From: Anaerolineae bacterium
GTDB lineage: Bacteria; Chloroflexota; Anaerolineae; Promineifilales; Promineifilaceae
Length of the DNA: 64,000 nucleotides
Assembly: GCA_019637635.1 (NCBI GenBank)
Contig: JAHBVI010000001.1
Span: 1-64,000 of the forward strand
Direction of reading: 5' to 3'
The position numbers and the translations under genes were made by a program. Below the pieces are notes generated by a model. It was not told the origin of the DNA and did not search any database. It saw nothing but the letters and a program-made list of their open reading frames with translations. Every line of letters begins with the position of its first letter. The stretch's first letter is position 1. Positions 30,982 to 43,335 of this stretch are shown here, one piece after another.

Positions 30982-33315
30982 TCAGGTGGGCACGTGGATG
31001 GGTAAGGTGATGGTGAAACAACTGCCGCTTTCACCGCTTTCACCGCTTTCGCCGCTTTCGGGGGAGAATTGGCCGCTGAGACGGCCGTGATGCAGCGCCA
31101 CATACTGTTTAACAATGTGCAGGCTGGCGGCATAGTCGGGGGCGTCAATCAGGTTGATCTCCTCAGACGCCAGGACTTGTTGAAAGCAGGCCAATGCCGC
31201 TGCCTGGATGGGGGCGACGGTCGTGACCGATACATGCACTTCTTCCTCCTCCTGGCTGAGCGATATGTTGGCGGCAGGTGGGCGTGTTTCCGCCTGGGTG
31301 ATGCTGAATCTTAACAGGCGTTCGACGCAGTCAGACAACATGCGGGAATTGCCAAAGATGGTGGGGGTTTCCGGCAGAAAGGTACAGGTGACCACTGTTT
31401 CCGGGTGGTATTGACGGCCGTATACCTGGCTTAACTCATACAGCAGCAACCCAAACGCGGCGATGGGCTGCGCTTCCCAGGTGTAAGAAACGGTGGCCTC
31501 GCCGGTTTGCAATTCGGCCAGGGTAATCAAATCCTTCACAAGCTCGTTCAGACGTTCGCTCCCTTTTTTGATTTCAACTAAGGAAGCGGCCAGTTCCTCT
31601 GGCGATTCAACGCTGTCTAATCCCTGGGCCAGTTTGAGGGTGTGAACATTGACGGCCGTCAGGGGGTGCATCATTTCTCGTGTCACCAGGTTCAAAATCC
31701 CCCGCTTCAGCACCTCAAAATCCGCTTGCACCAACTGCTGCGATTGGAAATGTTTGTCCAGCCGTTTTTCCACCAGTTTTAGCACATCATCCGGTTCATA
31801 GGGCTTGATGATATATTCTTCCACACCCAGCCGCCGGCCTTTGTATTCGTCTTGTTTTTCGCCTTTGGCCGTTAGAAAGATAAAGGGAACATGCACCCAT
31901 TGCGGATTTTCGCGTACCGTTTGCAGGAATTGGTACCCGTCCATTTGGGGCATCATAATGTCAGAAATAATCAAATCTGGTTGGTGGTCTTGTAAAATTT
32001 CCAACCCTTCACGGCCGTTCGTGGCTGTTAAGATGTGCAGGTCATACCGTCCCTCAAACAGCAGGAGCAAATCGGCCAGGCCGTGTAACAGGTTTTCTTC
32101 ATCTTCCACCAGCAGCAAGGTGGCCGGGATGCGGTTGTTAGCCGGGCGCACCGGCCACTCACCCTCAGGCGCATACATGGGCAGCAGTACGGTAAAAACG
32201 CTGCCATTATTCTCTTCACTATGCAACACAATACGGCCGTGATGCAATTCCACCAGATCGCGGGCAATGGTCAACCCCATGCCCGCCCCCTGCTGCTCCA
32301 TCAACGAGCGGTTATACTGCTCAAATAAATCAAAAATTCGTTCATGCATGGCCGCCGGAATGCCCAACCCCGTGTCGCTGAAAGCCACGCCCACCTCATG
32401 TCCTTGTGTAAAAACTGTCACCTGTACCAGCCGCTTCCGGCCCGTCACCGGCGCCGTAAACTTGATGGCATTGTTCAGCAGGGCGTCAAAAGCTGTTTGC
32501 AACCCGGCAGCGTCACCCCAAAAAGAGGGCGCCCGCGTCGCCGGTTCAAAGAGAATGGTCACCTGCTCCTCATCGGCAAACGGCCGTTGCCCATCAATAA
32601 CTGCCTGCACCAGACCATTCAAATCATCAATCCGATGACGGCGCTGCGCAAACTGCTGCGCCATCGCGCCGCTGCGCAGTTCAATAACCTGAATCAGCGC
32701 GCCCACCAGATTCGTCAGCCGCACACAGCCCGTTTGAATCCCATGTAAATACTCGCCATAATTCCGGTCAGCCTGGCGCGTTTCCAGGCTATTCAGGTAG
32801 TGATCCAGCATATCGTAATAAGCTGTCACGTAAGTGAGCGGGGTTCTAAACTCATGGTTTAGAATCTGCATCATATTCTTTTTCAACGATTCCAGGGTTT
32901 GCTCCCGGCGTTTGCGCCGCTCAAAACTACGATCCAACTGCGTCTGGATCAATTCGGCCAGTTCCCCCATCACAAAAGGTTTTGTCAGATACAGGTCGGC
33001 GTCACTCAACCGCCCTTTGCGCACATCTAGCTCTTTGCCTCGCGCCGTCAGGAAAATAAAAGGAATGTGTGTCCAGTCCGGGTTCTGGCGTACATAGCGC
33101 AAAAATTCAAAACCATCCATGCCCGGCATCATAATATCAGACACAATCAAATCCACCGGATGTTGCCTCATCATCTCCAGCGCAATCTGACCATTCCCGG
33201 CTTTTAGGGGGCGCAAATTGTAGCGAGAGGGGAAAACCTCCAGAGCATCGGCTATGCCGTTCAGCATATCTACATCATCTTCTACGATGAGGATGGTCAC
33301 CACACGACTTTTCAT
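30982..33315 (-). CDS. Hybrid sensor kinase with two receivers and a degenerate second kinase
   Basis: About 777 residues from ATG at 33315 (MKSRVVTILIVED). Receiver 1 (about 5-125) has the phospho-Asp in DLIVSDIMMPG. Kinase 1 has the H-box NHEFRTPL (about 158) and a complete ATPase with DTGLGIP. Receiver 2 (about 405-525) has DLIISDIMMPQ. A second H-box-like segment reads TREMMHPLT, with Arg where the phospho-His should be. The tail before the last strand holds repeated Ser-Gly-Glu. No membrane helix or sensor domain is seen, so signals must come through the receivers. No separate output regulator lies nearby. Confidence 0.9.
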   Translation of the reverse strand: MKSRVVTILIVEDDVDMLNGIADALEVFPSRYNLRPLKAGNGQIALEMMRQHPVDLIVSDIMMPGMDGFEFLRYVRQNPDWTHIPFIFLTARGKELDVRKGRLSDADLYLTKPFVMGELAELIQTQLDRSFERRKRREQTLESLKKNMMQILNHEFRTPLTYVTAYYDMLDHYLNSLETRQADRNYGEYLHGIQTGCVRLTNLVGALIQVIELRSGAMAQQFAQRRHRIDDLNGLVQAVIDGQRPFADEEQVTILFEPATRAPSFWGDAAGLQTAFDALLNNAIKFTAPVTGRKRLVQVTVFTQGHEVGVAFSDTGLGIPAAMHERIFDLFEQYNRSLMEQQGAGMGLTIARDLVELHHGRIVLHSEENNGSVFTVLLPMYAPEGEWPVRPANNRIPATLLLVEDEENLLHGLADLLLLFEGRYDLHILTATNGREGLEILQDHQPDLIISDIMMPQMDGYQFLQTVRENPQWVHVPFIFLTAKGEKQDEYKGRRLGVEEYIIKPYEPDDVLKLVEKRLDKHFQSQQLVQADFEVLKRGILNLVTREMMHPLTAVNVHTLKLAQGLDSVESPEELAASLVEIKKGSERLNELVKDLITLAELQTGEATVSYTWEAQPIAAFGLLLYELSQVYGRQYHPETVVTCTFLPETPTIFGNSRMLSDCVERLLRFSITQAETRPPAANISLSQEEEEVHVSVTTVAPIQAAALACFQQVLASEEINLIDAPDYAASLHIVKQYVALHHGRLSGQFSPESGESGESGESGSCFTITLPIHVPT
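31024..31062. repeat. 9-bp tandem repeat in the kinase C-terminus
   Basis: About four copies of CGCTTTCAC-type units encode the Gly-Glu-Ser repeats in the last 20 residues of the kinase. The copy number could vary by slippage without shifting the frame. Confidence 0.7.
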
Positions 33316-33404
33316 GGGTGCATTATAGCATAAGCCAGGAGGCAAACTGAGAGGAACAAAGTACCCAAACGAGGCGACACGTGGGCGGTGGGAGGAACTA
33401 CAAA

Positions 33405-33474: not shown

Positions 33475-34212
33475 TTAATTTGTGCGCAATCGGTGGGCCG
33501 CAAATAGGACGACCACCAGGAGCAAGCCGATCAGGGCAATGGCCCATGTTTCCAGGCCGGTTTGCGGCAAGGCGCCGGTTTGGGAACCGGCGACTGTGGT
33601 TGGCGTGCTGCCGGCGACAATCACGCTGCCGCTGCTGCCGGCGCCGGTATCACCACTACCACCACCGGCAACGGCCGTGCCGCCGCTCTCACCGCCACTG
33701 CCGGCAACGGCCGTGCCAATGATAATTGTACCGGGAACGCCTTCACCACCCGCACCCGGCGCCGTTTCCTCATCACCACCCGCGCCCGCTTCTTCCCCAT
33801 CGCCTGTTTCCGCGCCATCCGTAGACCCCTCGTCGCCCCCAGTTCCCACCGAACCCAATACGCTGGTTGGGGTGGCGGTGGCTACTTCGGCCACAGCGGC
33901 CGGCGTGCTGGTATTGGTGGCCTGTGGTTCTGGCGTCTGCGTGGGTGCGGCCTGCGCCGTTTCTGTTTCGATGATGAACTGGGCGATGGCCGTGTTTGTT
34001 ACCATCACAATGGCATTTTGTGTTTCAATGGCCGAAATTTCGGTCGAATTGGTTGTGCCGCTGTTGTCCAACATCATCAACACGACCACACAGGCAGCAG
34101 CTAACACAAACACGGTTATCAATGCCCCAGCAGCCATCAAAAATGGCCGATTACTCGATGCACTTCCTTCTTCTTCTACCAGATACTCATCATCCGCGAA
34201 TTCATCTTCCAT
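33475..34212 (-). CDS. Surface protein with LPQTG sorting signal
   Basis: A 245-residue protein. An acidic cytoplasmic N-terminus (MEDEFADDEYLVEEE) is followed by a membrane helix (about 25-48). A Thr/Gly/Ala/Ser low-complexity stalk comes next, and then a C-terminal LPQTG, a hydrophobic helix and the basic tail HRLRTN. The tail matches the cell-wall sorting signal recognised by sortases, but the N-terminal helix is not a cleavable signal, which is unusual. It starts 70 bases after the KOW/barrel gene and may be the last gene of the MutL operon. No sortase is in the window. Start chosen: ATG at 34212 with GGAGGCAACCA before it. Confidence 0.8.
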   Translation of the reverse strand: MEDEFADDEYLVEEEGSASSNRPFLMAAGALITVFVLAAACVVVLMMLDNSGTTNSTEISAIETQNAIVMVTNTAIAQFIIETETAQAAPTQTPEPQATNTSTPAAVAEVATATPTSVLGSVGTGGDEGSTDGAETGDGEEAGAGGDEETAPGAGGEGVPGTIIIGTAVAGSGGESGGTAVAGGGSGDTGAGSSGSVIVAGSTPTTVAGSQTGALPQTGLETWAIALIGLLLVVVLFAAHRLRTN

Positions 34213-34282
34213 TGGTTGCCTCCATTTAACCCGGCGGTGGCGCGGTCAAAAAAAAGACCGGCCACAGCGAGAATAATGACTC

Positions 34283-35341
34283 CTAAATAATAACGTCCAC
34301 ATTGGCAAAGGGCGTGAAGACCACCTGCCCATCGGCCAGACGAATGTTGGCCCCCTGCGCTTTGGCGCCGGTTGCCAGCAATTGTGACAGCATGAAAATT
34401 TCAACCACTTCCCCGGTTTGCCCCACAAAAGGGGCACGCAGCAGGCGTACTTTTTGCCCAATTTGCAGCGGTTTGTTGGCCTGCACGGCTTCGCTGCTGG
34501 GGGTAGCCGGTTCGGGGATAATGATCTCTGGTCGCTGGCCCCGGCTGGCGTCATAATTGGCAAAGAGCGAAGTTTCGCGCCCTTCTACTTGCTGCAGCAG
34601 GCCAAATATAACGGGGGACATGCTTTGTTTGCCAACGCCATCGGTTAAAATGATGGGGTATTTCAACCCGTAAGCAGCATCGCATAAATCAGCGGTCATA
34701 CTGCCGGCAATGATTCCGGCTACGGCCATTTCTTGCGCCAGGTGCAGCACTTCTTCATGTTCCAACCTGCCCACTGCCAAAATGTGTTTATTTACTTCAC
34801 CTGTCAGTTGATCTTTGGCTAAGAAGCCGTTGTTGCTGCGCGACATGATCTTCAACTTGCCGTGGTTTTCTTTGCGTGATCCCCAAATACCTTGAATGAA
34901 AGCGCCATAAGTTTCAATGACCACGCCTCTGTCACCCACATGGCTGACCACTTTGCCAGAAACCAGGGCAGGTGTTTCTACCCAATCGGCAGCTTGTTGG
35001 ATGAAGATACGGCCGTTAATCACATCATATAATTCACCGGCCACAGGGGATATAACCTGCCGGGCGCGCAGCCCTTTTTTCTGCGCCAGAACGGTACCTT
35101 CATCTACCGCAGAATTTTTTTCCACGATGACAAGTTCATTTACCTTTTCTGGTGGCACACCTAAAATCTGGCCGGCATCTACGATGACAAAAACGGTTTG
35201 CATTGGCGTGCGGGCCACGATCTGGCCGGGGGTGACTTCCGTGCCAATTTTTACAATCATTTCCCCGCTTTGCGGCAATACCCGCTCGCGGCGAATTTTC
35301 ATATGCGGCTGAATAATGGTTGTGCGTGTGTAATGTTCCAT
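34283..35341 (-). CDS. Barrel-sandwich hybrid plus KOW-like protein beside MutL
   Basis: About 352 residues from ATG at 35341 (MEHYTRTTIIQP). The N-terminal 140 residues look like biotinyl/lipoyl-type barrel-sandwich modules (SGEMIVKIGTEVTPGQIVAR, then SPVAGELYD) but lack a biotin- or lipoyl-lysine motif. The middle is mixed alpha/beta. The end has a KOW-like SH3 segment (GQKVRLLRAPFVGQTGEVVE). No signal or membrane helix is seen. It follows the MutL-type gene after a 90-base gap containing a hairpin, and shares its orientation. I know no function for such a protein. Confidence 0.75.
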   Translation of the reverse strand: MEHYTRTTIIQPHMKIRRERVLPQSGEMIVKIGTEVTPGQIVARTPMQTVFVIVDAGQILGVPPEKVNELVIVEKNSAVDEGTVLAQKKGLRARQVISPVAGELYDVINGRIFIQQAADWVETPALVSGKVVSHVGDRGVVIETYGAFIQGIWGSRKENHGKLKIMSRSNNGFLAKDQLTGEVNKHILAVGRLEHEEVLHLAQEMAVAGIIAGSMTADLCDAAYGLKYPIILTDGVGKQSMSPVIFGLLQQVEGRETSLFANYDASRGQRPEIIIPEPATPSSEAVQANKPLQIGQKVRLLRAPFVGQTGEVVEIFMLSQLLATGAKAQGANIRLADGQVVFTPFANVDVII

Positions 35342-35351
35342 GATTGCTCGC

Positions 35352-35413
35352 AGACCTGACAGGTTTTCACCAGTTCGATTTGGAACCCCATAGGTCAAAA
35401 ACCTGTCAGGTCT
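35352..35413 (-). repeat. CCTGACAGG-family hairpin between MutL and KOW genes
   Basis: AGACCTGACAGGTTTT and AAAACCTGTCAGGTCT form a perfect 16-bp stem with a 30-nt loop. The stem lies inside the operon, directly before the KOW-protein start codon, so it may reduce or tune downstream expression. Confidence 0.7.
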
Positions 35414-35431
35414 TATTTCTTCGCCTCGCCA

Positions 35432-37195
35432 TCAACCACCCAAATCCCACTGCCATTTACGCATCAGGCTGCGCCGGTCATTGGGGTCACGCGGCAGAGC
35501 CAACGGCCGTCCGCGGGCATCAATGACCAGCCCACCCACCAAACCGCCCTTCAGCGTCAGCGTTTTTCCCTGGCCGGGGCCAAACCCAATATCAAAACGC
35601 CCGGTTGGTTTTACCGTCACCTGGGCTTCCTGGCCGGGGGAAATGGGAAACACCTCAATCTTGCCAAATTCAATTTCCCCTTCAAACCGGGCGGTTGGTG
35701 ATTCAATGACAATGTCCAGCACCTTTTTGCCCGGCTGCCCTTTGCCTGCCGGGGCAATTACCCAGCCCAATTCGGAGAGTACCCCGGCGGCCAACGTCTG
35801 CACCACAACCAGCGGTTGCTGGCCGGCCAATACCCCCAACGGCGGCAAAACGCCATATTGGTCCAATCCCACCGAAAATATGCCGGTTGGTTGCAGGGCA
35901 TCGAGTAACAGCAGCATCACCTGGCCCGGACGTGGCGCTCTGGCAAAAACAGCGCCATGCACCAACAGCCGGTCAAAAGCAGGCACATGCAGCGCGTGGC
36001 CGTTTGACGCCCAATGCCATTCAACGGCCGTAGACTGCAATGCACAGTGCAACATGGCCCGCGCCGCCGCCTGTTCCAGATGTAAATCCGCTTCCGTCAG
36101 CGGGATCGTTTGAGGGTAGAGCGATTTATTAACCAGGTAATTGGCTACGTCCGGTTCATCTACCTCGTCCGGCAGCCAACGCATGATGTTGTCTACGGCC
36201 GTGTGCTGCAGCAAATGGGCCATCGGCTCACCCATGCCCAAATCCGTGCGCACAGAGAGATGCACCTGGCCCGCCTGGGCCATCACCAGGGTAGTGCTGT
36301 TACTACCCAAATCAATGCCCAATACCCGCTGCTCTTGCCCGGCATAATAGTGGCACACATGGGCAAAGCCCCGCGCCGTGGGCAGTGTGGGAAAACCGGC
36401 CCACTCACTTAGCTCATGGATGCCGGGCAAATTTTGAATTTTAATATCTTCATACAACTCCTCCGCCAGCCGCATCACATCATCCAACTGCTCTGTTGCC
36501 AGATCGGGGCGGATGTTGTTCGCCATATGCAAATGAGCGTTTCCCTCCAGCAGTCCCCGCACCTGTTCCCGCAGTTTCAAGTTGCCCGCGTACAGCACGT
36601 GAGGTAGCTGGCTGTCGGCCAGCACCATGGCCGCTACCACTGCCACTTCCACCAGCCGCAGCAGACGCTCTTCCGCGCCGCCATCCGTACCACCGGCAAT
36701 GGCAATGAGATCGGGGCGGCTTTTGATGACGGCCGTAATCTGCTCCGCTTCCGGGCGTGTGTCGGCCAGGCTCACCACCTCCACCTCTTGCACATAAATC
36801 GTGCGCAGCGCCTTGCGCAAACTGGCCAGACTCATCTCGTCATACAGCCCCACCAGCACCGTTTTAAGCGGCGAAGGCGCGCTGACAACCATGGCAAAAT
36901 GGTCAACCCCAGAGCCGTCTTTGCGGGGTGGGCGAATGAGATGCCCTCGTTCATTGAGTAGTTTCCGGCCCGTTATCTCTGAGAGGCGGCCTATCCCCTG
37001 CTGCACACAGGTCATCACATCTAGCCAGGGCAGTCGCGCCGTGGTGGGCACAGAAGCACAGGCCACCAACCGGTAACTGCCATCAACGGTATCAATCAGG
37101 ATCACCGTCGTGTTGGTAGCGCCAATGTCGGCCAGGACAAATGATTTTTCCAGGTCATCTATTTCCTGGATGGGCTTTTCTTCCAATTCAGCCAT
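35432..37195 (-). CDS. MutL-family actin-like ATPase (glutamate mutase L type)
   Basis: About 587 residues from ATG at 37195 (MAELEEKPIQEID), two bases after the previous stop. It shows two phosphate-1 loops of the actin/Hsp70 fold: FVLADIGATNTTVILID (about residue 20) and VLGIDLGSNSTTLVMA (about 290). The central IAIAGGTDGGAEERLL matches the MutL family. In clostridia, GlmL/MutL lies between the glutamate mutase subunits and is thought to serve that B12 enzyme. No mutase subunit is visible here; the partners are membrane and scaffold proteins. A role as an ATP-driven assembly or envelope factor is my inference. Confidence 0.87.
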   Translation of the reverse strand: MAELEEKPIQEIDDLEKSFVLADIGATNTTVILIDTVDGSYRLVACASVPTTARLPWLDVMTCVQQGIGRLSEITGRKLLNERGHLIRPPRKDGSGVDHFAMVVSAPSPLKTVLVGLYDEMSLASLRKALRTIYVQEVEVVSLADTRPEAEQITAVIKSRPDLIAIAGGTDGGAEERLLRLVEVAVVAAMVLADSQLPHVLYAGNLKLREQVRGLLEGNAHLHMANNIRPDLATEQLDDVMRLAEELYEDIKIQNLPGIHELSEWAGFPTLPTARGFAHVCHYYAGQEQRVLGIDLGSNSTTLVMAQAGQVHLSVRTDLGMGEPMAHLLQHTAVDNIMRWLPDEVDEPDVANYLVNKSLYPQTIPLTEADLHLEQAAARAMLHCALQSTAVEWHWASNGHALHVPAFDRLLVHGAVFARAPRPGQVMLLLLDALQPTGIFSVGLDQYGVLPPLGVLAGQQPLVVVQTLAAGVLSELGWVIAPAGKGQPGKKVLDIVIESPTARFEGEIEFGKIEVFPISPGQEAQVTVKPTGRFDIGFGPGQGKTLTLKGGLVGGLVIDARGRPLALPRDPNDRRSLMRKWQWDLGG

Positions 37196-37197
37196 AG

Positions 37198-37842
37198 CTA
37201 AGGGTTCAGTGCCTGCATATAGAAATAAATCCGGCCAGCCAACAAAACAAAGCTGGTATTCAGCAGCGCCGCAAACAGCGCGCCAAAGGTTATCATCAAC
37301 ACGGCGCGGCCCAGCCACACAATGCCCTGCTGCCAACGCGCCGGTTCCCACACGCCGCTGCCGCCGGCCCGGAACGCGGTGAATTGAAATGACAACAGTG
37401 TCAGCGCCGCCAACACAGCGATGAGAATGCCGCGCAAGGGATCACTGGTGTTGGCATAGGTGCCGGTTAACTGTGGCCACAGCGTCCCGGTTAAAGCGCC
37501 CAGAAAGGCAATGGCCGCGCCCACACCCACCAGCAGCGCCAACGGGATGTTGCCCACCCAACTGGCCGCGCGCAGCCGGCGCAGCAGCAAAAACAATGCC
37601 AGCAAAATGGGAACCAGCAGATAAATGGTGTCGGCCGGGCCGGGATTTTCGGTGATGGTGCGGTAGACAGGTTCAAATACTTGCTGCACCACAACCACCA
37701 CAGCATAAGCGGCGCTGGCCCCAACCAGAATGTGTATGGCCAGGCGATAAGGAATCCTATCTCCAATGAAGAGATAGCTGTAAATACAGAGCGTCAGGGT
37801 GAGTCCCACCAATAGGCCGATGAAATCTGCATTCAGGGTCAT
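37198..37842 (-). CDS. Polytopic membrane protein of the MutL operon
   Basis: A 214-residue protein with about six membrane helices (for example near residues 7-25, 33-52, 68-85, 95-118, 135-155 and 180-205). No family was recognised. Its start is two bases after the stop of the zinc-ribbon scaffold gene and its stop is two bases before the MutL start, so the three are translated as a unit. The N-terminus MTLNADFIGLLVGL resembles the kind of small integral protein that anchors an ATPase to the membrane. Confidence 0.78.
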   Translation of the reverse strand: MTLNADFIGLLVGLTLTLCIYSYLFIGDRIPYRLAIHILVGASAAYAVVVVVQQVFEPVYRTITENPGPADTIYLLVPILLALFLLLRRLRAASWVGNIPLALLVGVGAAIAFLGALTGTLWPQLTGTYANTSDPLRGILIAVLAALTLLSFQFTAFRAGGSGVWEPARWQQGIVWLGRAVLMITFGALFAALLNTSFVLLAGRIYFYMQALNP

Positions 37843-37844
37843 AA

Positions 37845-40800
37845 TTATCTTGTACGACGCTGGGCGGTAATGCCGGTAATTAAATAGATGAGTGCGCCCA
37901 ACAGCAGGACAACCACCGCCAACATTTGGGCGGCAACCTGGGCATTGAATAAGGTGCGGGCATCCGTTAATTGGGCGTTACGGTAATAGGTTTGCTGGTA
38001 CACGGCCGTGCCCGGTATGCCATTCACCACACCGGCAAGCTGAGCCGTGTCAAAATAGGGCAGCGCCAGGGGCGTTAATGCCTGGGTGACGCCGGCTATC
38101 ATCGGCCGGTCGGCGGGAGCGCCCACCTGCTCCACCCAATTGACCAATGTTTGCCGGTCGGCCGTCAGCACAATGATCAAGGAGACATCGGCCAACGCCT
38201 GTTCCTGGCTGGCCGGTAGGGGCGCGCCAAACAGGGCGTCACAGTTGGCGGACTGGTTCAGACATTCACCTAACCGCCGTAGCCCAATGGCCCCACCCGG
38301 CAAATAACCCAGGGGCACGGCCGTGTCCATCCCGATCTGTTCGGTAACATCTGCTGCTACTTTGACGCCGGGGGTATATTGGCTCAGCGTCAGCACACGG
38401 GTTTGCGCGTCGGCTAACTGCATCAGCAGCGTCTCCGCTTCTGGCGTCAACTCACCGGCCATAGCCGGCGTATATTCAAAGGCAATCAATACCGTGCCGC
38501 CGGCGGTCTGGCTCACGGCCGTGTTCACGCCCGTTAATGCCGCTGACGGCCGTAGTTGGGTCGGGATGACGGGAATTTCACCACGCAAACCTAAAATGAC
38601 GACCAGCAGCAGCACCACCACAAATAACGGCCGTATCCAACCCGAAATATCACGCGCCGTTTGCCGGGTGGTTGTTGTCTCGGCCCCCTGCCCATCCTGC
38701 GCCAATTGGCGCAGCAAATTCGCCTGCTGCACCTGCTCTGGACTGACGCCAAATTGCTCTAAAGGATCGGCCACCCGTGGCAGGGCGATCACCGGTTCCA
38801 CCGCCACCACACCGCGCAGACCACTCAAGGGGCCAAACGATTCCTCCGGCCCGGTCGCCTCCACTTTGGGGCTTTCGCCGGTCAGCTCTACCGGTTTTAG
38901 CTCCATCACCCAGGCCGGGATGTCTGCCTTGGGCAGCAGGTCTTGCAGCGGCACGGCCGGTGGTAGATCGTCGAGAATGGCGCTCCATTCATCGCTGGCC
39001 CCGGTCATGCCGGTTGCGCCCGCCGGTTGGTCGGCCAGAAAATCGGCGTCGGCTGCATCCAGCGTTAAGCCGGGCTGAAGCCAATCGGGAATGTCGGCAA
39101 GCTGCGTGTCGGCCGGCATGGCAATGGATGGGGCAGCGCCGGCATCGTGGGAAATGTCTTGCAGCCAGTCTGGTAAATCAGCGCCGGCCAATTCTTCGGG
39201 TACACCGGCCAACGTTTCCGGCGTTTTATCGCGCCAGACAGAGGCTAAAACGCTCTCTGTCATCGCCTGTCCGGGGCGCATATTGGCGATCCAATCCGGC
39301 AGCTCATCGCTGGGGATCAGTTCCCCTTCCTCATCTACCATTTCCGGTAGTGAGGTGGTGGCGTCAAGCTGGCTGATCCACGCCGGCAGTTCCCCTTCTG
39401 GTTCGGCCACATCAAAAGAGCTTTCTGCCGCCCAATCTTCATCTGTATAAGGGGCGACGTCGGGAATAACGGCCGTGTCGTCGGCAAACTCCTCTGCAAA
39501 ATCGGCGATGGGGGCGGCGGGCACAGCCGCTTCGTCTACGCCTGGTTCCGGCGCTCCCGGTTCTTCTATTTCCGGCAGCCGTAAATCTTCTGGCCCCATG
39601 GCCGCCAGCGCCGCCAGCCAGTCTGGCTCATCAGACAGGATGCCATCGGTGAAGAGATCATCTGTCTCCGAAACGTCTGACAGCAATTTATCCATTGCCT
39701 CATCATCCAGATGCAGGCTGCCACTCTGACGCAGAAAATTAATCTCTGTTGCTGCTGCCAGGCTCTCTGTTTTGAAAATGTCGTCCAGACTATCGCTCTC
39801 CAGATCATACCCGGTCGGCGCTGCTAAATCTGCCGATGCGGCCACACCGGCCAGCCAATCGGGCAACTCTTCGGCAATGCCTGGTTGAGACTGGAAAATG
39901 GAGGCCAGCTCTTCTTCTGTTTCCTCCAGCCAGCCAAAGTCACTGGGGATTTCTGGCGAGATGGCGGCTTTTTCTGGCGGCGCCGCTTCATCCAGCCAGC
40001 TGAATTGCTCAGTTTCTTCATCTGCCGGAGGCGCTGTGTCGCTAAACCAGGCAGCCAGCCGGGCCGCCTCATCTGGCTGCGGTTTGGCCGGGGGTGTCGC
40101 TTCGGTCTCTGGCGCTTCGGCAAACCAATCCATGAGGCCCCGGTCAGCTTGAGAATCGGCGGGAGTTACGGCCGTTTCCTCTTCATCGCCCCAATCATCA
40201 AACCAGTCGGCTAAACCCTCTTCCAATGGCGCACTAATCTCTGCTGCCGGTTTGTCCGCTGGTTTGCCCGCCGGTTCAGCAAACCAGGCTGCCAGCCTGC
40301 CCGTTTCTGATGGCCCGACGCTGCTTTCGTCCCAGGTTTCATCCTCTTCTGGGAAGTCCTCTTCTGGGAAATCGGCTTCTGCGAAATCGGTGAGCCAATC
40401 TGTCAGGTCTTCCTGAACCTGCCCGGCGTCAACGGCTTCGGTGTCTGGTTCTGCGCTGGCCTCCACAAACCAATCTGTCAATCGTCCGGCTTCGGCTGCG
40501 CTTCCTTCGCCTGGTACCGGCGTGGCCTCTTCCTCTTCATCTCGAAAATCAGAAAGCCAGTCGGTGAGGTTGTCTTGAAGCTCATCCGCGGCCATGGGCG
40601 CCACGGAAGATGGTGTTCCTTGTACGGCTAACCATTCCGTCAGGTCAGGGGCATCGGATTCGCTTGCCGCCGCCCATTCGTCTTCTGACTCAATCGGCGT
40701 GTCTGCTAACCAACTGGTCAAACTCTCTTGATCTTCTTTGCCGGGCGTCACGGTGCTGTCCGCCTCCTGAGATAACCAGGAGGTGAGGCTGTCGGCGGGC

Positions 40801-41576
40801 TGCCGAGGCAAATTCCAATCATCCTCTTCTTCTAGCTGGGAGGATGACAACCAGCTCGTCAGGCTTTTTTCGGCTTCCGGTGGTTGGGGGGGCAACGGCC
40901 GTGCTGCTTTTGCCGGCTTTTCTGGCGTCCCACTCTCTTCCTCATCTACACCGACCGACTTTGCCGGGGGTGGCCCCGTTTTACCGGCCGATGGCCCGGC
41001 ATCCATTAGCCAATCGGGTAAATCGGCTTCATCTTCCGCGAAAAGATCATCCGGGAGGGTTGGCGTTGCTTCCGCGCGCCCTAACAAATCCTTGTAAAAC
41101 TCGGTGGAAATAATGGTGGGGGCATGGATGATGGGGTCGGAGTCCTCTTCATCAACCAACCATTCTGGCAGATCGTCCGTGTGCCTTTTGCGAGTCAACT
41201 CCTCAATACGCGGCAGGTCTAACCCTGCCAGATCGTCGCTGTCAGGTTCCCGGCCCATTTTGCCGGTCTTGAGCCAATCCGGTACCTTGTTGGGGTCCAG
41301 GTCGCCGGTTTCTCCGGGGCGGCGGGCCGGTAAGGAAAAAGCCCCTTTGACGGGGGCGGCCGGTTCATCTTTGGCTTTGGCCTCAGGGCGTGGCTCTTCA
41401 GGAATTAAGCGGGTGCCGCAATGATCACAAAAAACACGGTCAATGGGGTTCGACGTGCCACAGTTGACGCAGATGATGTGGGTACCCAGGGGTAATTTTG
41501 CCCCGCAGTTGTTACAAAATTTACTGCCGGCCGGGTTTGAAAAGGCACACTCTTTACAAACAATTTCCTGACTCAT
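37845..41576 (-). CDS. Zinc-ribbon scaffold protein with many acidic Trp motifs
   Basis: A 1,243-residue protein. Two zinc ribbons begin it (CKECAFSNPAGSKFCNNC and CVNCGTSNPIDRVFCDHC). About 850 residues of acidic, probably disordered sequence follow. They hold roughly twenty motifs of the form Leu-x-x-Trp-Leu/Phe/Ile (LTSWLS, LTDWLS, LADWFDDW, LPDWLQ, IPAWVM). A membrane helix (around 985-1005) precedes a folded external domain and a second helix near the end (VVVLLLGALIYLITG). Regular spacing of short motifs on a long tether suggests a multivalent docking platform; that is inference. It overlaps the preceding gene by four bases (ATGA). Confidence 0.85.
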   Translation of the reverse strand: MSQEIVCKECAFSNPAGSKFCNNCGAKLPLGTHIICVNCGTSNPIDRVFCDHCGTRLIPEEPRPEAKAKDEPAAPVKGAFSLPARRPGETGDLDPNKVPDWLKTGKMGREPDSDDLAGLDLPRIEELTRKRHTDDLPEWLVDEEDSDPIIHAPTIISTEFYKDLLGRAEATPTLPDDLFAEDEADLPDWLMDAGPSAGKTGPPPAKSVGVDEEESGTPEKPAKAARPLPPQPPEAEKSLTSWLSSSQLEEEDDWNLPRQPADSLTSWLSQEADSTVTPGKEDQESLTSWLADTPIESEDEWAAASESDAPDLTEWLAVQGTPSSVAPMAADELQDNLTDWLSDFRDEEEEATPVPGEGSAAEAGRLTDWFVEASAEPDTEAVDAGQVQEDLTDWLTDFAEADFPEEDFPEEDETWDESSVGPSETGRLAAWFAEPAGKPADKPAAEISAPLEEGLADWFDDWGDEEETAVTPADSQADRGLMDWFAEAPETEATPPAKPQPDEAARLAAWFSDTAPPADEETEQFSWLDEAAPPEKAAISPEIPSDFGWLEETEEELASIFQSQPGIAEELPDWLAGVAASADLAAPTGYDLESDSLDDIFKTESLAAATEINFLRQSGSLHLDDEAMDKLLSDVSETDDLFTDGILSDEPDWLAALAAMGPEDLRLPEIEEPGAPEPGVDEAAVPAAPIADFAEEFADDTAVIPDVAPYTDEDWAAESSFDVAEPEGELPAWISQLDATTSLPEMVDEEGELIPSDELPDWIANMRPGQAMTESVLASVWRDKTPETLAGVPEELAGADLPDWLQDISHDAGAAPSIAMPADTQLADIPDWLQPGLTLDAADADFLADQPAGATGMTGASDEWSAILDDLPPAVPLQDLLPKADIPAWVMELKPVELTGESPKVEATGPEESFGPLSGLRGVVAVEPVIALPRVADPLEQFGVSPEQVQQANLLRQLAQDGQGAETTTTRQTARDISGWIRPLFVVVLLLVVILGLRGEIPVIPTQLRPSAALTGVNTAVSQTAGGTVLIAFEYTPAMAGELTPEAETLLMQLADAQTRVLTLSQYTPGVKVAADVTEQIGMDTAVPLGYLPGGAIGLRRLGECLNQSANCDALFGAPLPASQEQALADVSLIIVLTADRQTLVNWVEQVGAPADRPMIAGVTQALTPLALPYFDTAQLAGVVNGIPGTAVYQQTYYRNAQLTDARTLFNAQVAAQMLAVVVLLLGALIYLITGITAQRRTR

Positions 41577-42205
41577 TTGTTATACGGCCGTTCTAATCCG
41601 ATCAGCATACGCACCGACAGCAAAATAGAACCAAGCGCCACTCCTATGAGCAAACCACGTACACCGGCAATCACGATCACATTTTGGATCACGTCTTGAA
41701 TACGGAAAAACCATTCGCTCAACAGCGGCGGCGCCCAGGATGTGACCAACAAGACATCAGCGGCTAAAACGAGTACGGCTGTGACCAAAAACAATATAGA
41801 CCACACCGTGCGCTGCCGCTTCATCAATTGAAACCCGGCAAATAACAAGAAAAAGGCCAACAACGAAGCCAGCGCCGCTTCTAATGGCGCTTGAACCCAA
41901 TCAAAATAATGGGTCATGCCATTTTCGGTTATCCCTATCCGGTCTAACACCGCAATGGTAAATACCGCGGCCATGCTGAGAATGAGAACCAGACTATACA
42001 AATTCCCTTTTCTAACAGTCCGGTTCAAATGCACCACGAACAGATTTAATACACCCAAAACCAGCGCAAAGGCCACCAGCAGCCCGGCCCAACCCAGAGT
42101 CAGGTTTGTTACTACTGGCGGCAGGTTAAACACCAGCCCCAACAGCGTCAGCCAGCCAAAAAACAGGGCGATGGCTATGGGTAACAGTTGGTTCGTGCGG
42201 CGCAT
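41573..42205 (-). CDS. Polytopic membrane protein of the MutL operon
   Basis: A 210-residue protein with five or six membrane helices (near residues 8-28, 38-56, 70-88, 105-125, 135-155 and 175-200). No family was recognised. The ATGA overlap with the scaffold gene and a two-base gap from the gene before it indicate coupled translation. It is similar in size and hydrophobicity to the membrane protein at 37198-37842, but I see no clear sequence match between them. Confidence 0.77.
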   Translation of the reverse strand: MRRTNQLLPIAIALFFGWLTLLGLVFNLPPVVTNLTLGWAGLLVAFALVLGVLNLFVVHLNRTVRKGNLYSLVLILSMAAVFTIAVLDRIGITENGMTHYFDWVQAPLEAALASLLAFFLLFAGFQLMKRQRTVWSILFLVTAVLVLAADVLLVTSWAPPLLSEWFFRIQDVIQNVIVIAGVRGLLIGVALGSILLSVRMLIGLERPYNK

Positions 42206-42207
42206 AC

Positions 42208-42951
42208 TCAGAAAAGACCTTCAACCAGGGCCAACAAAACGATCCCGCCGGCTAAAATCCAGCGAATGATGTCTTGCAACTGTAATGTAGCCAGACGGCT
42301 GGGGTCATCTCGCAGGTAAGCGCCAGCCGCCAGCAGCTCTTCACCTACCAGCACATTCTGGCTAAATGCCGTGGCTACCGCCAACGCCGAGGGGTCATCT
42401 GTGCCTAATAGTTGGTCCAGACGGCGGTTGTTGGCGGCTTCGGCAATCAGGGCCAGTTCGGGGCCAAATCGGCCTACGGCAATGTTGCCGGTGACGCGAT
42501 CTTGCTGCAAGAGGCTGGCGGCGCCGCCAGCATAGATGAAGGGGGTTGTTTCGGGGGCAATAAAGCGCACCTGGTCGGGGGCAAACTCACCGCTGCGCCC
42601 GGTTTCCTGGTAGGCGTGGCGCAAACTGCCCTGGGCAATGGGCAACAAGGTGCCTTCGCCCACCGTAACCAATGGCGGGGTGCTGTTGGCGCAGCCATCA
42701 ACAGCCAGGTGATCCAATACCTGGAGAGCGGCAATGGTGGTGGGGGCGGCCTGGTTTACCAGACCGGCCTGCCCCAGGGTGACGTGCAGGGGACTGCCGC
42801 TTTCGATGGAGCGGCCCAGCTGGCCTTTAATGCCATCTAAAGCGGGCAACGGCCGTAACGCCACCTGCCGCCCAACCTGGACGCTGCGGGTTAACAAAAA
42901 CAGTAATACGGCTAAGGCCGCTATAATGCCCAGGATAATCAGTGGGGTCAT
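42208..42951 (-). CDS. Membrane-anchored protein, possibly DUF6754-like
   Basis: About 247 residues from ATG at 42951 (MTPLIILGIIAALAVLLFLL). One N-terminal and one C-terminal membrane helix frame a folded region with VTLGQAGLVN, TPPLVTVGEGTLLP and VRFIAPETTPFIYAGG. I associate this pattern with the DUF6754 family common in Chloroflexota, but this is from memory. An upstream ATG-like frame extension to 43083 would overlap the previous gene and is rejected. The ATGA at 42948-42951 couples it to the small gene before it. Confidence 0.78.
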   Translation of the reverse strand: MTPLIILGIIAALAVLLFLLTRSVQVGRQVALRPLPALDGIKGQLGRSIESGSPLHVTLGQAGLVNQAAPTTIAALQVLDHLAVDGCANSTPPLVTVGEGTLLPIAQGSLRHAYQETGRSGEFAPDQVRFIAPETTPFIYAGGAASLLQQDRVTGNIAVGRFGPELALIAEAANNRRLDQLLGTDDPSALAVATAFSQNVLVGEELLAAGAYLRDDPSRLATLQLQDIIRWILAGGIVLLALVEGLF

Positions 42952-43223
42952 GCCTGTTCTGCCTCTCCTGCGTTTAACCTGACGAGTAATGCGCGCACGG
43001 CCGTTGGCTCGGCCAGGAGTTGTGCCAGTTGTCGTACCAGATGCGAGGGGATAAAGAGGGAAAGCGCCGGCTGTGCTACCCACAACACCTGCTCCCCAAA
43101 AAAATGGAACGGGGGGCCACCCTCCAATAAAATAGTTACAGGCGTTTGCCAGCCACGGCGGCGCACGGCCGTCGCCAGCTTTTCTATAAATTCACCCGCT
43201 TCCTGTGCCCGTAACTCTTCCAT
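42948..43223 (-). CDS. Small protein opening the MutL operon
   Basis: About 91 residues from ATG at 43223 (MEELRAQEAGEFIEKLATAV). It looks like a soluble alpha/beta protein (GWQTPVTILLEGGPPFHFFG, VLWVAQPALSLFIPSHLV). A TTG at 43274 would add 17 residues with two Cys; I prefer the ATG, though its ribosome site is weak. It is the first gene after the operon promoter and is linked to the next gene by an ATGA overlap. No family was recognised. Confidence 0.68.
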   Translation of the reverse strand: MEELRAQEAGEFIEKLATAVRRRGWQTPVTILLEGGPPFHFFGEQVLWVAQPALSLFIPSHLVRQLAQLLAEPTAVRALLVRLNAGEAEQA

Positions 43224-43292
43224 TTTCCGGTTGTTTGGGCTATGCCCGGCACTGCTGGCACAGCCACACTTCAACTTGACGTAACATAATGT

Positions 43293-43335
43293 TGTAAAGC
43301 GGAGTATAACACGTTTACAAAAGGGTGTAAAGCGG
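43293..43335 (-). promoter_or_regulatory. Promoter and possible operator of the MutL operon
   Basis: On the minus strand TTTACA (43331-43326) and TATACT (43308-43303) are 17 bases apart, a near-consensus sigma-70 promoter. A dyad TTTACA/TGTAAA overlaps the -35 box. The plus-strand word TGTAAAGCGG occurs at 43293-43302 and again at 43326-43335, 33 bases apart, about three helical turns, bracketing the -10. This is the layout expected for a repressor acting on two sites. The rest of the gap to 43482 holds nothing I can name. Confidence 0.6.

Follow-up and report, generated by a model that had tools for sequence, protein, structure and literature searches.

A conserved Chloroflexota gene cluster pairing a MutL-type actin-like ATPase with a putative Trp-motif membrane scaffold

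A stretch of 64,000 nucleotides from an Anaerolineae bacterium of the phylum Chloroflexota (assembly GCA_019637635.1, contig JAHBVI010000001.1, positions 1 to 64,000; here called the window) carries on its minus strand an operon centred on an actin-like ATPase of the MutL family. Seven genes follow one another from position 43223 to 34283, encoding a small protein, a DUF6754 protein, a polytopic membrane protein (TM5a), a zinc-ribbon scaffold (ZnW), a further polytopic membrane protein (TM5b), the MutL-type ATPase and a barrel-sandwich hybrid/KOW protein, and the gene for an LPQTG protein comes next. Every feature named in a first-pass annotation of this DNA is present where it had been placed, and the parts are as follows.

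43303..43331, minus strand: putative promoter of the operon, TTTACA-17-TATACT, its second hexamer preceded by TG (from a consensus scan only)
42948..43223, minus strand: small protein of 91 amino acids, first gene of the operon; no Pfam family
42208..42951, minus strand: DUF6754 protein of 247 amino acids, two transmembrane helices flanking a predicted cytoplasmic domain; PF20539, 7e-33
41573..42205, minus strand: TM5a, polytopic protein of 210 amino acids with ~6 transmembrane segments; no Pfam or PDB relative
37845..41576, minus strand: ZnW scaffold of 1243 amino acids, with a double zinc ribbon, a long acidic low-complexity Trp-motif arm and a C-terminal transmembrane helix-ectodomain-transmembrane helix part; PF12773, 3e-10
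37198..37842, minus strand: TM5b, polytopic protein of 214 amino acids with ~6 transmembrane segments; no Pfam or PDB relative
35432..37195, minus strand: MutL-type actin-like ATPase of 587 amino acids with a clade-specific C-terminal domain; PF13941, 5e-54
34283..35341, minus strand: barrel-sandwich hybrid/KOW protein of 352 amino acids from the ATG at 35341; KOW and RnfC_N matches below cut-off
33475..34212, minus strand: LPQTG protein with an N-terminal anchor, a Thr/Pro/Gly-rich composition and an LPQTG-transmembrane-basic tail at its end; assigned from sequence features

ATGA overlaps join the small protein gene to DUF6754 and TM5a to the scaffold gene, and gaps of 2 bases separate DUF6754 from TM5a, the scaffold from TM5b, and TM5b from MutL (counting MutL from the ATG at position 37195). 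The joins from MutL to KOW (~90 bases) and from KOW to LPQTG (~70 bases) are looser. Six tightly coupled genes had been proposed; the ATGA and 2-base joins agree with this, but the run comprises seven genes once KOW is included, and in Anaerolineae-type loci LPxTG brings the number to eight. Purifying selection acts on all eight, with ratios of non-synonymous to synonymous substitution of 0.04-0.25 against two relatives. The sigma-70-like promoter upstream of the first gene agrees with the consensus at 10 of 12 positions, and promoter-like matches across the region are no more frequent than in shuffles. Between MutL and KOW (window 35353-35412) lies a near-perfect inverted repeat, GACCTGACAGGTTTT / AAAACCTGTCAGGTC, a possible repeat element or attenuator-like hairpin; irrespective of position, its arm sequences are present in loci L002, L003 and L005 and absent from L004.

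The linkage of these genes was followed through 301 Chloroflexota genomes (f, G and L codes denote coded families, genomes and loci, respectively). MutL scores above its family cut-off in 122 of the genomes and DUF6754 in 66, and DUF6754 with its membrane module is represented in 18 coded families. A DUF6754 match of any strength occurs in 67 genomes, of which 53 carry MutL on the same contig; in every one of these 53, the two genes share a strand and DUF6754 lies 2.2-6.3 kilobases (kb) upstream, so that the gene order across Chloroflexota neighbourhoods, on which the first-pass annotation had staked its claim, proves to be conserved. DUF6754 and MutL are found on different contigs in 12 further genomes. 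Inspection of ten of these, in part or in full, showed nine to be compatible with a contig break, usually close to or within the repetitive scaffold gene, as is expected of one operon broken in assembly. As for the remaining two of the 67 genomes, the operon of G105 holds a MutL fragment where its contig ends, and in G295 the operon contig stops inside the scaffold. Profile searches of 85 loci recovered DUF6754 at 47, TM5a at 47, TM5b at 48, the scaffold membrane domain at 48 and the small protein, which sits upstream of DUF6754, at 44. The order of the membrane-module genes is identical throughout these loci, and DUF6754 was never seen apart from its neighbours in the sampled genomes.

A smaller set of genes recurs more widely. 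Several families, f28, f44, f46 and f20 among them, lack the membrane genes and keep a soluble zinc-ribbon protein with Trp motifs, followed by MutL and KOW; somewhere, therefore, the basic function is independent of the membrane proteins. Where the membrane module is missing, the soluble motif-bearing protein still immediately precedes MutL, an arrangement that speaks for MutL or KOW as the partner of the motif. Adjacency of MutL and KOW recurs in deeply separated families, and MutL lies directly upstream of KOW in nine sampled loci of further families, where some of the MutLs match the Pfam MutL model weakly or not at all. The KOW family is the widest component (178/301 genomes), and the MutL-KOW pair is the most widespread core, to which the motif scaffold is often added.

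The operon MutL matches PF13941 with 184 bits (cut-off 27) over model positions 2-446 of 450 (residues 22-470), and its closest named relatives, at 82-97% identity, come from metagenome-assembled genomes of Chloroflexi and Anaerolineae. It scores 66.6 bits on the GlmL equivalog model (NF040745 / TIGR01319; cut-off 475) and 47.5 bits on NF040744, the GlmL-related ornithine degradation family (cut-off 600). The existence of the latter family corrects the earlier statement that MutL is known only in company with glutamate mutase. A quick maximum-likelihood tree, built without bootstrap, places between 34 operon MutLs and true GlmL a branch with a length of 1.16 changes per column and a Shimodaira-Hasegawa-like approximate likelihood-ratio support of 100. 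By sequence, then, the operon MutL is a clade of its own, distinct from GlmL. Branching inside this clade largely tracks the coded families, in agreement with vertical inheritance. No relatives were found in viral contigs, and the sole match in a plasmid search was the true GlmL of Prevotella. Glutamate mutase E (PF06368) is above its cut-off in just 4 of the 301 genomes and has no match in this one, and no mutase gene was found beside an operon MutL, as had been noted for the window. Neither of the outcomes that the first-pass annotation had named as refuting it, unlinked genes in relatives or a mutase subunit adjoining MutL in most genomes, was thus observed. One genome, G176, holds both proteins: a true GlmL stands beside its mutase there, and the operon MutL copy is 486 kb away.

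The phosphate-1, phosphate-2 and adenosine motifs of the actin-like fold are kept in the operon clade, the key residues being present in 37 to 48 of 48 MutL sequences (D23 in 37, G25 in 47, T29 in 46, G297 in 47, G414 in 48 and D432 in 47). Past the end of the Pfam model lies a C-terminal domain with the pattern GGxLGLVIDARGRPLxLPxD and an almost invariant Trp, in which D559 and R561 are found in all 48 sequences. Compared with the PDB, the clade profile gave a weak best match to PilM (E 0.04 over 75 positions), which is a hint only, and no Pfam match to the FtsA family was obtained for the operon protein. The MutLs of family f33 (L050, L080, L122) have two Trp motifs in their C-terminal tails, and these tails close with basic and aromatic residues, as in SRKGWFRRK, an ending that resembles a membrane-binding tip. 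A MutL-domain match at L011 (G184), in an open frame of >1000 amino acids, belongs clearly neither to GlmL nor to the operon clade.

The arm of the ZnW scaffold is an array of short motifs centred on Trp. In the window protein there are 20 strict copies, against 0.37 expected and a maximum of 2 in 200 composition shuffles. The motif is enriched in most scaffolds, with up to 40 strict copies, and the alignment of 803 occurrences on their Trp gave the consensus [DE]-[LV]-P-[AD]-W-L-[RQ]. The ectodomain has no Pfam relative, and its PDB matches are at chance level (best E 0.15). Assemblies seem to break repeatedly in the scaffold gene (G012, G024, G052, G078, G206, G274), a probable effect of the near identity of its Trp-motif repeats at the DNA level; draft genomes may understate how long the scaffolds are and how many motifs they hold. 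Elsewhere in the genome of the window (L158:6778-12732, contig C179, minus strand) a 1984-amino-acid protein is encoded, with tetratricopeptide repeat (TPR)-like repeats at both ends and a long acidic middle.

Positive-inside counts, taken as means over 37-40 sequences, place the zinc ribbon, the motif arm and the DUF6754 domain inside and the scaffold ectodomain outside; for DUF6754, lysine plus arginine amount to 4.0 in the 15 residues following the first transmembrane helix compared with 0.07 preceding it. A link from the cytoplasm to the outside is thereby predicted for the scaffold; the first-pass annotation had suggested one from cytoplasmic ATP hydrolysis to the membrane. The small protein, TM5a, TM5b and the scaffold ectodomain match no Pfam family. 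Profile comparison did not support TM5a and TM5b as paralogues, nor a kinship of DUF6754 to the ectodomain, KOW or MutL.

In the KOW protein, the KOW and RnfC_N Pfam matches fall slightly below their cut-offs, and RnfC_N was matched in 15 of 46 family members. The C-terminal KOW part matches Spt5, NusG and L24, weakly and over short motifs only, and in three members the N-terminal part shows a weak match to the hybrid domain of polymerase beta'. Where the KOW gene stands apart from MutL (L148, L149, L150, L153, L156), it is followed by a gene of the response-regulator/histidine-kinase type and by that of a receiver protein; the C-terminal domain of the receiver protein may be roadblock-like. 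In f59 such a KOW gene adjoins the ATP synthase operon. The LPxTG genes mostly follow immediately after KOW, chiefly in Anaerolineae-type loci, and 19 of 23 family members keep at their C-terminus the features of a sortase substrate, namely the LPxTG with a hydrophobic segment and a tail of basic residues; this genome has three sortase genes. The LPxTG protein may thus be a wall-anchored partner, and would be an accessory part because it is missing in other lineages. Downstream of the operon (window 30982-33345) comes a gene of the histidine-kinase type, whose product has two receiver domains.

Taken together, these data are, at about even probability, those of an undescribed, vertically inherited Chloroflexota system, in which a membrane scaffold gathers a MutL-KOW core and thereby switches a membrane assembly. 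The cytoplasmic core would consist of the actin-like ATPase of the MutL subfamily and its barrel-sandwich/KOW partner, tethered at the membrane by the cytoplasmic arm of the scaffold through many weak [DE][LV]P[AD]WL[RQ] motifs. The C-terminal domain of the scaffold would extend outside the membrane, and the membrane part would be made up of DUF6754 and the two polytopic proteins. When MutL binds or hydrolyses ATP, the scaffold would sense this, and the membrane assembly would be switched from one state to another. We infer the mutual binding of the products, the recruitment of the core by the motifs and the switching purpose. A cytoplasmic actin fold is coupled to short motifs of membrane proteins in PilM-PilN and FtsA-FtsN. 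A more far-reaching version, which we advance tentatively, is a phylum-scale membrane machine in which a multivalent Trp-motif scaffold brings the MutL-family ATPase together in a large assembly, perhaps a condensate, and the ATPase drives an extracytoplasmic module. The system appears to be of a new kind because no known system of such composition was found, the operon MutL scores below the GlmL cut-off and it lacks an FtsA match; an undescribed system around this ATPase had been anticipated in the first-pass annotation. It is new as a system, Pfam already having entries under the names MutL, DUF6754, zinc ribbon and KOW, and the open PubMed Central (PMC) literature yielded nothing on DUF6754, PF13941 or the system itself.

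Several observations weigh against the proposal of a scaffold-borne MutL-KOW core. The KOW gene is unlinked from MutL in families f23, f33, f59 and f62. In G015 the module is divided between two contigs, with TM5b and MutL lying away from a contig end, possibly a genuine split of the operon. At L070-L073 and L110-L113, MutL-KOW occurs without an upstream Trp-motif protein or membrane genes, and the scaffolds of f19 are cut down to the two transmembrane helices and the ectodomain, with no motif arm; the motif is therefore dispensable. The 1984-amino-acid TPR-like protein carries ten PDWL/DWL-type motifs like those of the scaffold, so the motif partner may be something else or common to other systems, and this protein is possibly a second user of that partner. 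AlphaFold models were unusable both for DUF6754 (mean predicted local distance difference test score 38) and for MutL with five close relatives (mean 35), and the sampled genomes come from one phylum.

Other explanations account for parts of the same evidence. MutL could act as an ATP-dependent chaperone or reactivase for some other enzyme or membrane complex, with KOW and the scaffold presenting the client. The homology to GlmL, which is thought to serve glutamate mutase in this way, and the occurrence of the soluble core without membrane genes both speak for such a role; yet no recurrent enzyme gene stands beside MutL-KOW in the examined loci, and an ectodomain with two polytopic proteins is not obviously needed for it, which makes it unlikely. 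Service to glutamate mutase itself, suggested by the family name alone, is ruled out by the equivalog score, the scarcity of the mutase, its absence beside any operon MutL and the long, supported branch of the tree, on both sides of which G176 has a copy; we give it next to no probability. A co-translational or RNA-linked membrane platform, in which ribosome, RNA or polymerase is bound by KOW and the product passes to the membrane proteins, would explain the matches to Spt5, NusG and L24 and to the beta' hybrid domain. These matches are weak and cover short motifs, however, and KOW and barrel-sandwich folds are also plain protein-binding modules; we consider this platform quite improbable.

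A cytoskeletal or cell-division actin, substituting for FtsA or working alongside it, is in keeping with the actin-like fold, the membrane partners, the basic aromatic end of the f33 MutLs and the lack of a strong MutL match in all 20 listed FtsW-negative genomes. FtsA is nevertheless present in 282 of 301 genomes, including this one, and is therefore not replaced, and many genomes with FtsW and FtsA do without the system, so that a division role is distinctly improbable. A peptidoglycan link was also considered from the same 20 genomes; being mostly small and related, they are no evidence by themselves. Finally, the operon might unite unrelated housekeeping genes that form no shared complex, since conservation of order alone does not prove interaction. 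The membrane genes, however, come or go as a block (47-48 loci) and DUF6754 was not seen alone in the sampled genomes, and we regard mere co-location as very improbable.

The cell biology of Chloroflexota is described as poorly studied in one paper (PMC7332563). A multi-gene system that is conserved across much of the phylum and includes several unmatched families offers a concrete target for study. The cluster has the look of an old molecular machine of the cell membrane that has gone unstudied. The Trp-motif arrays provide a simple handle on what recruits the ATPase. The naming of MutL in Chloroflexota should change, as the family name implies mutase companions and yet hardly any genome has the mutase.

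Among known systems and families, DUF6754 (PF20539) includes the two-helix protein of the operon as a member, and the family carries no recorded function. The GlmL/MutL of glutamate (methylaspartate) mutase shares with the operon MutL the actin-like fold across the whole Pfam model and similar nucleotide motifs, whereas the operon protein has an extra C-terminal domain, falls in a separate clade and is accompanied by KOW, a scaffold and membrane proteins instead of a mutase. The proposed likeness to FtsA and to PilM-PilN starts from the actin fold that they have in common with MutL and from the way in which those systems work. FtsA is actin-like and membrane-associated, and the f33 MutL has a basic, amphipathic-looking tail; the operon MutL differs in having no FtsA family match, and a separate SHS2_FTSA protein is encoded in the same genome. 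In PilM-PilN of type IV pili, and in GspL of type II secretion, an actin-like protein is recruited by a motif of a membrane protein, much as MutL might be by the scaffold. PilN, PilO, pilin and secretion families were not found by Pfam among the operon products, the flanking genes not having been systematically scanned. The putative membrane partner in the operon differs from those of PilM and GspL in its two transmembrane helices, its zinc ribbon and its tens of motifs, and it is joined by DUF6754 and two polytopic proteins.

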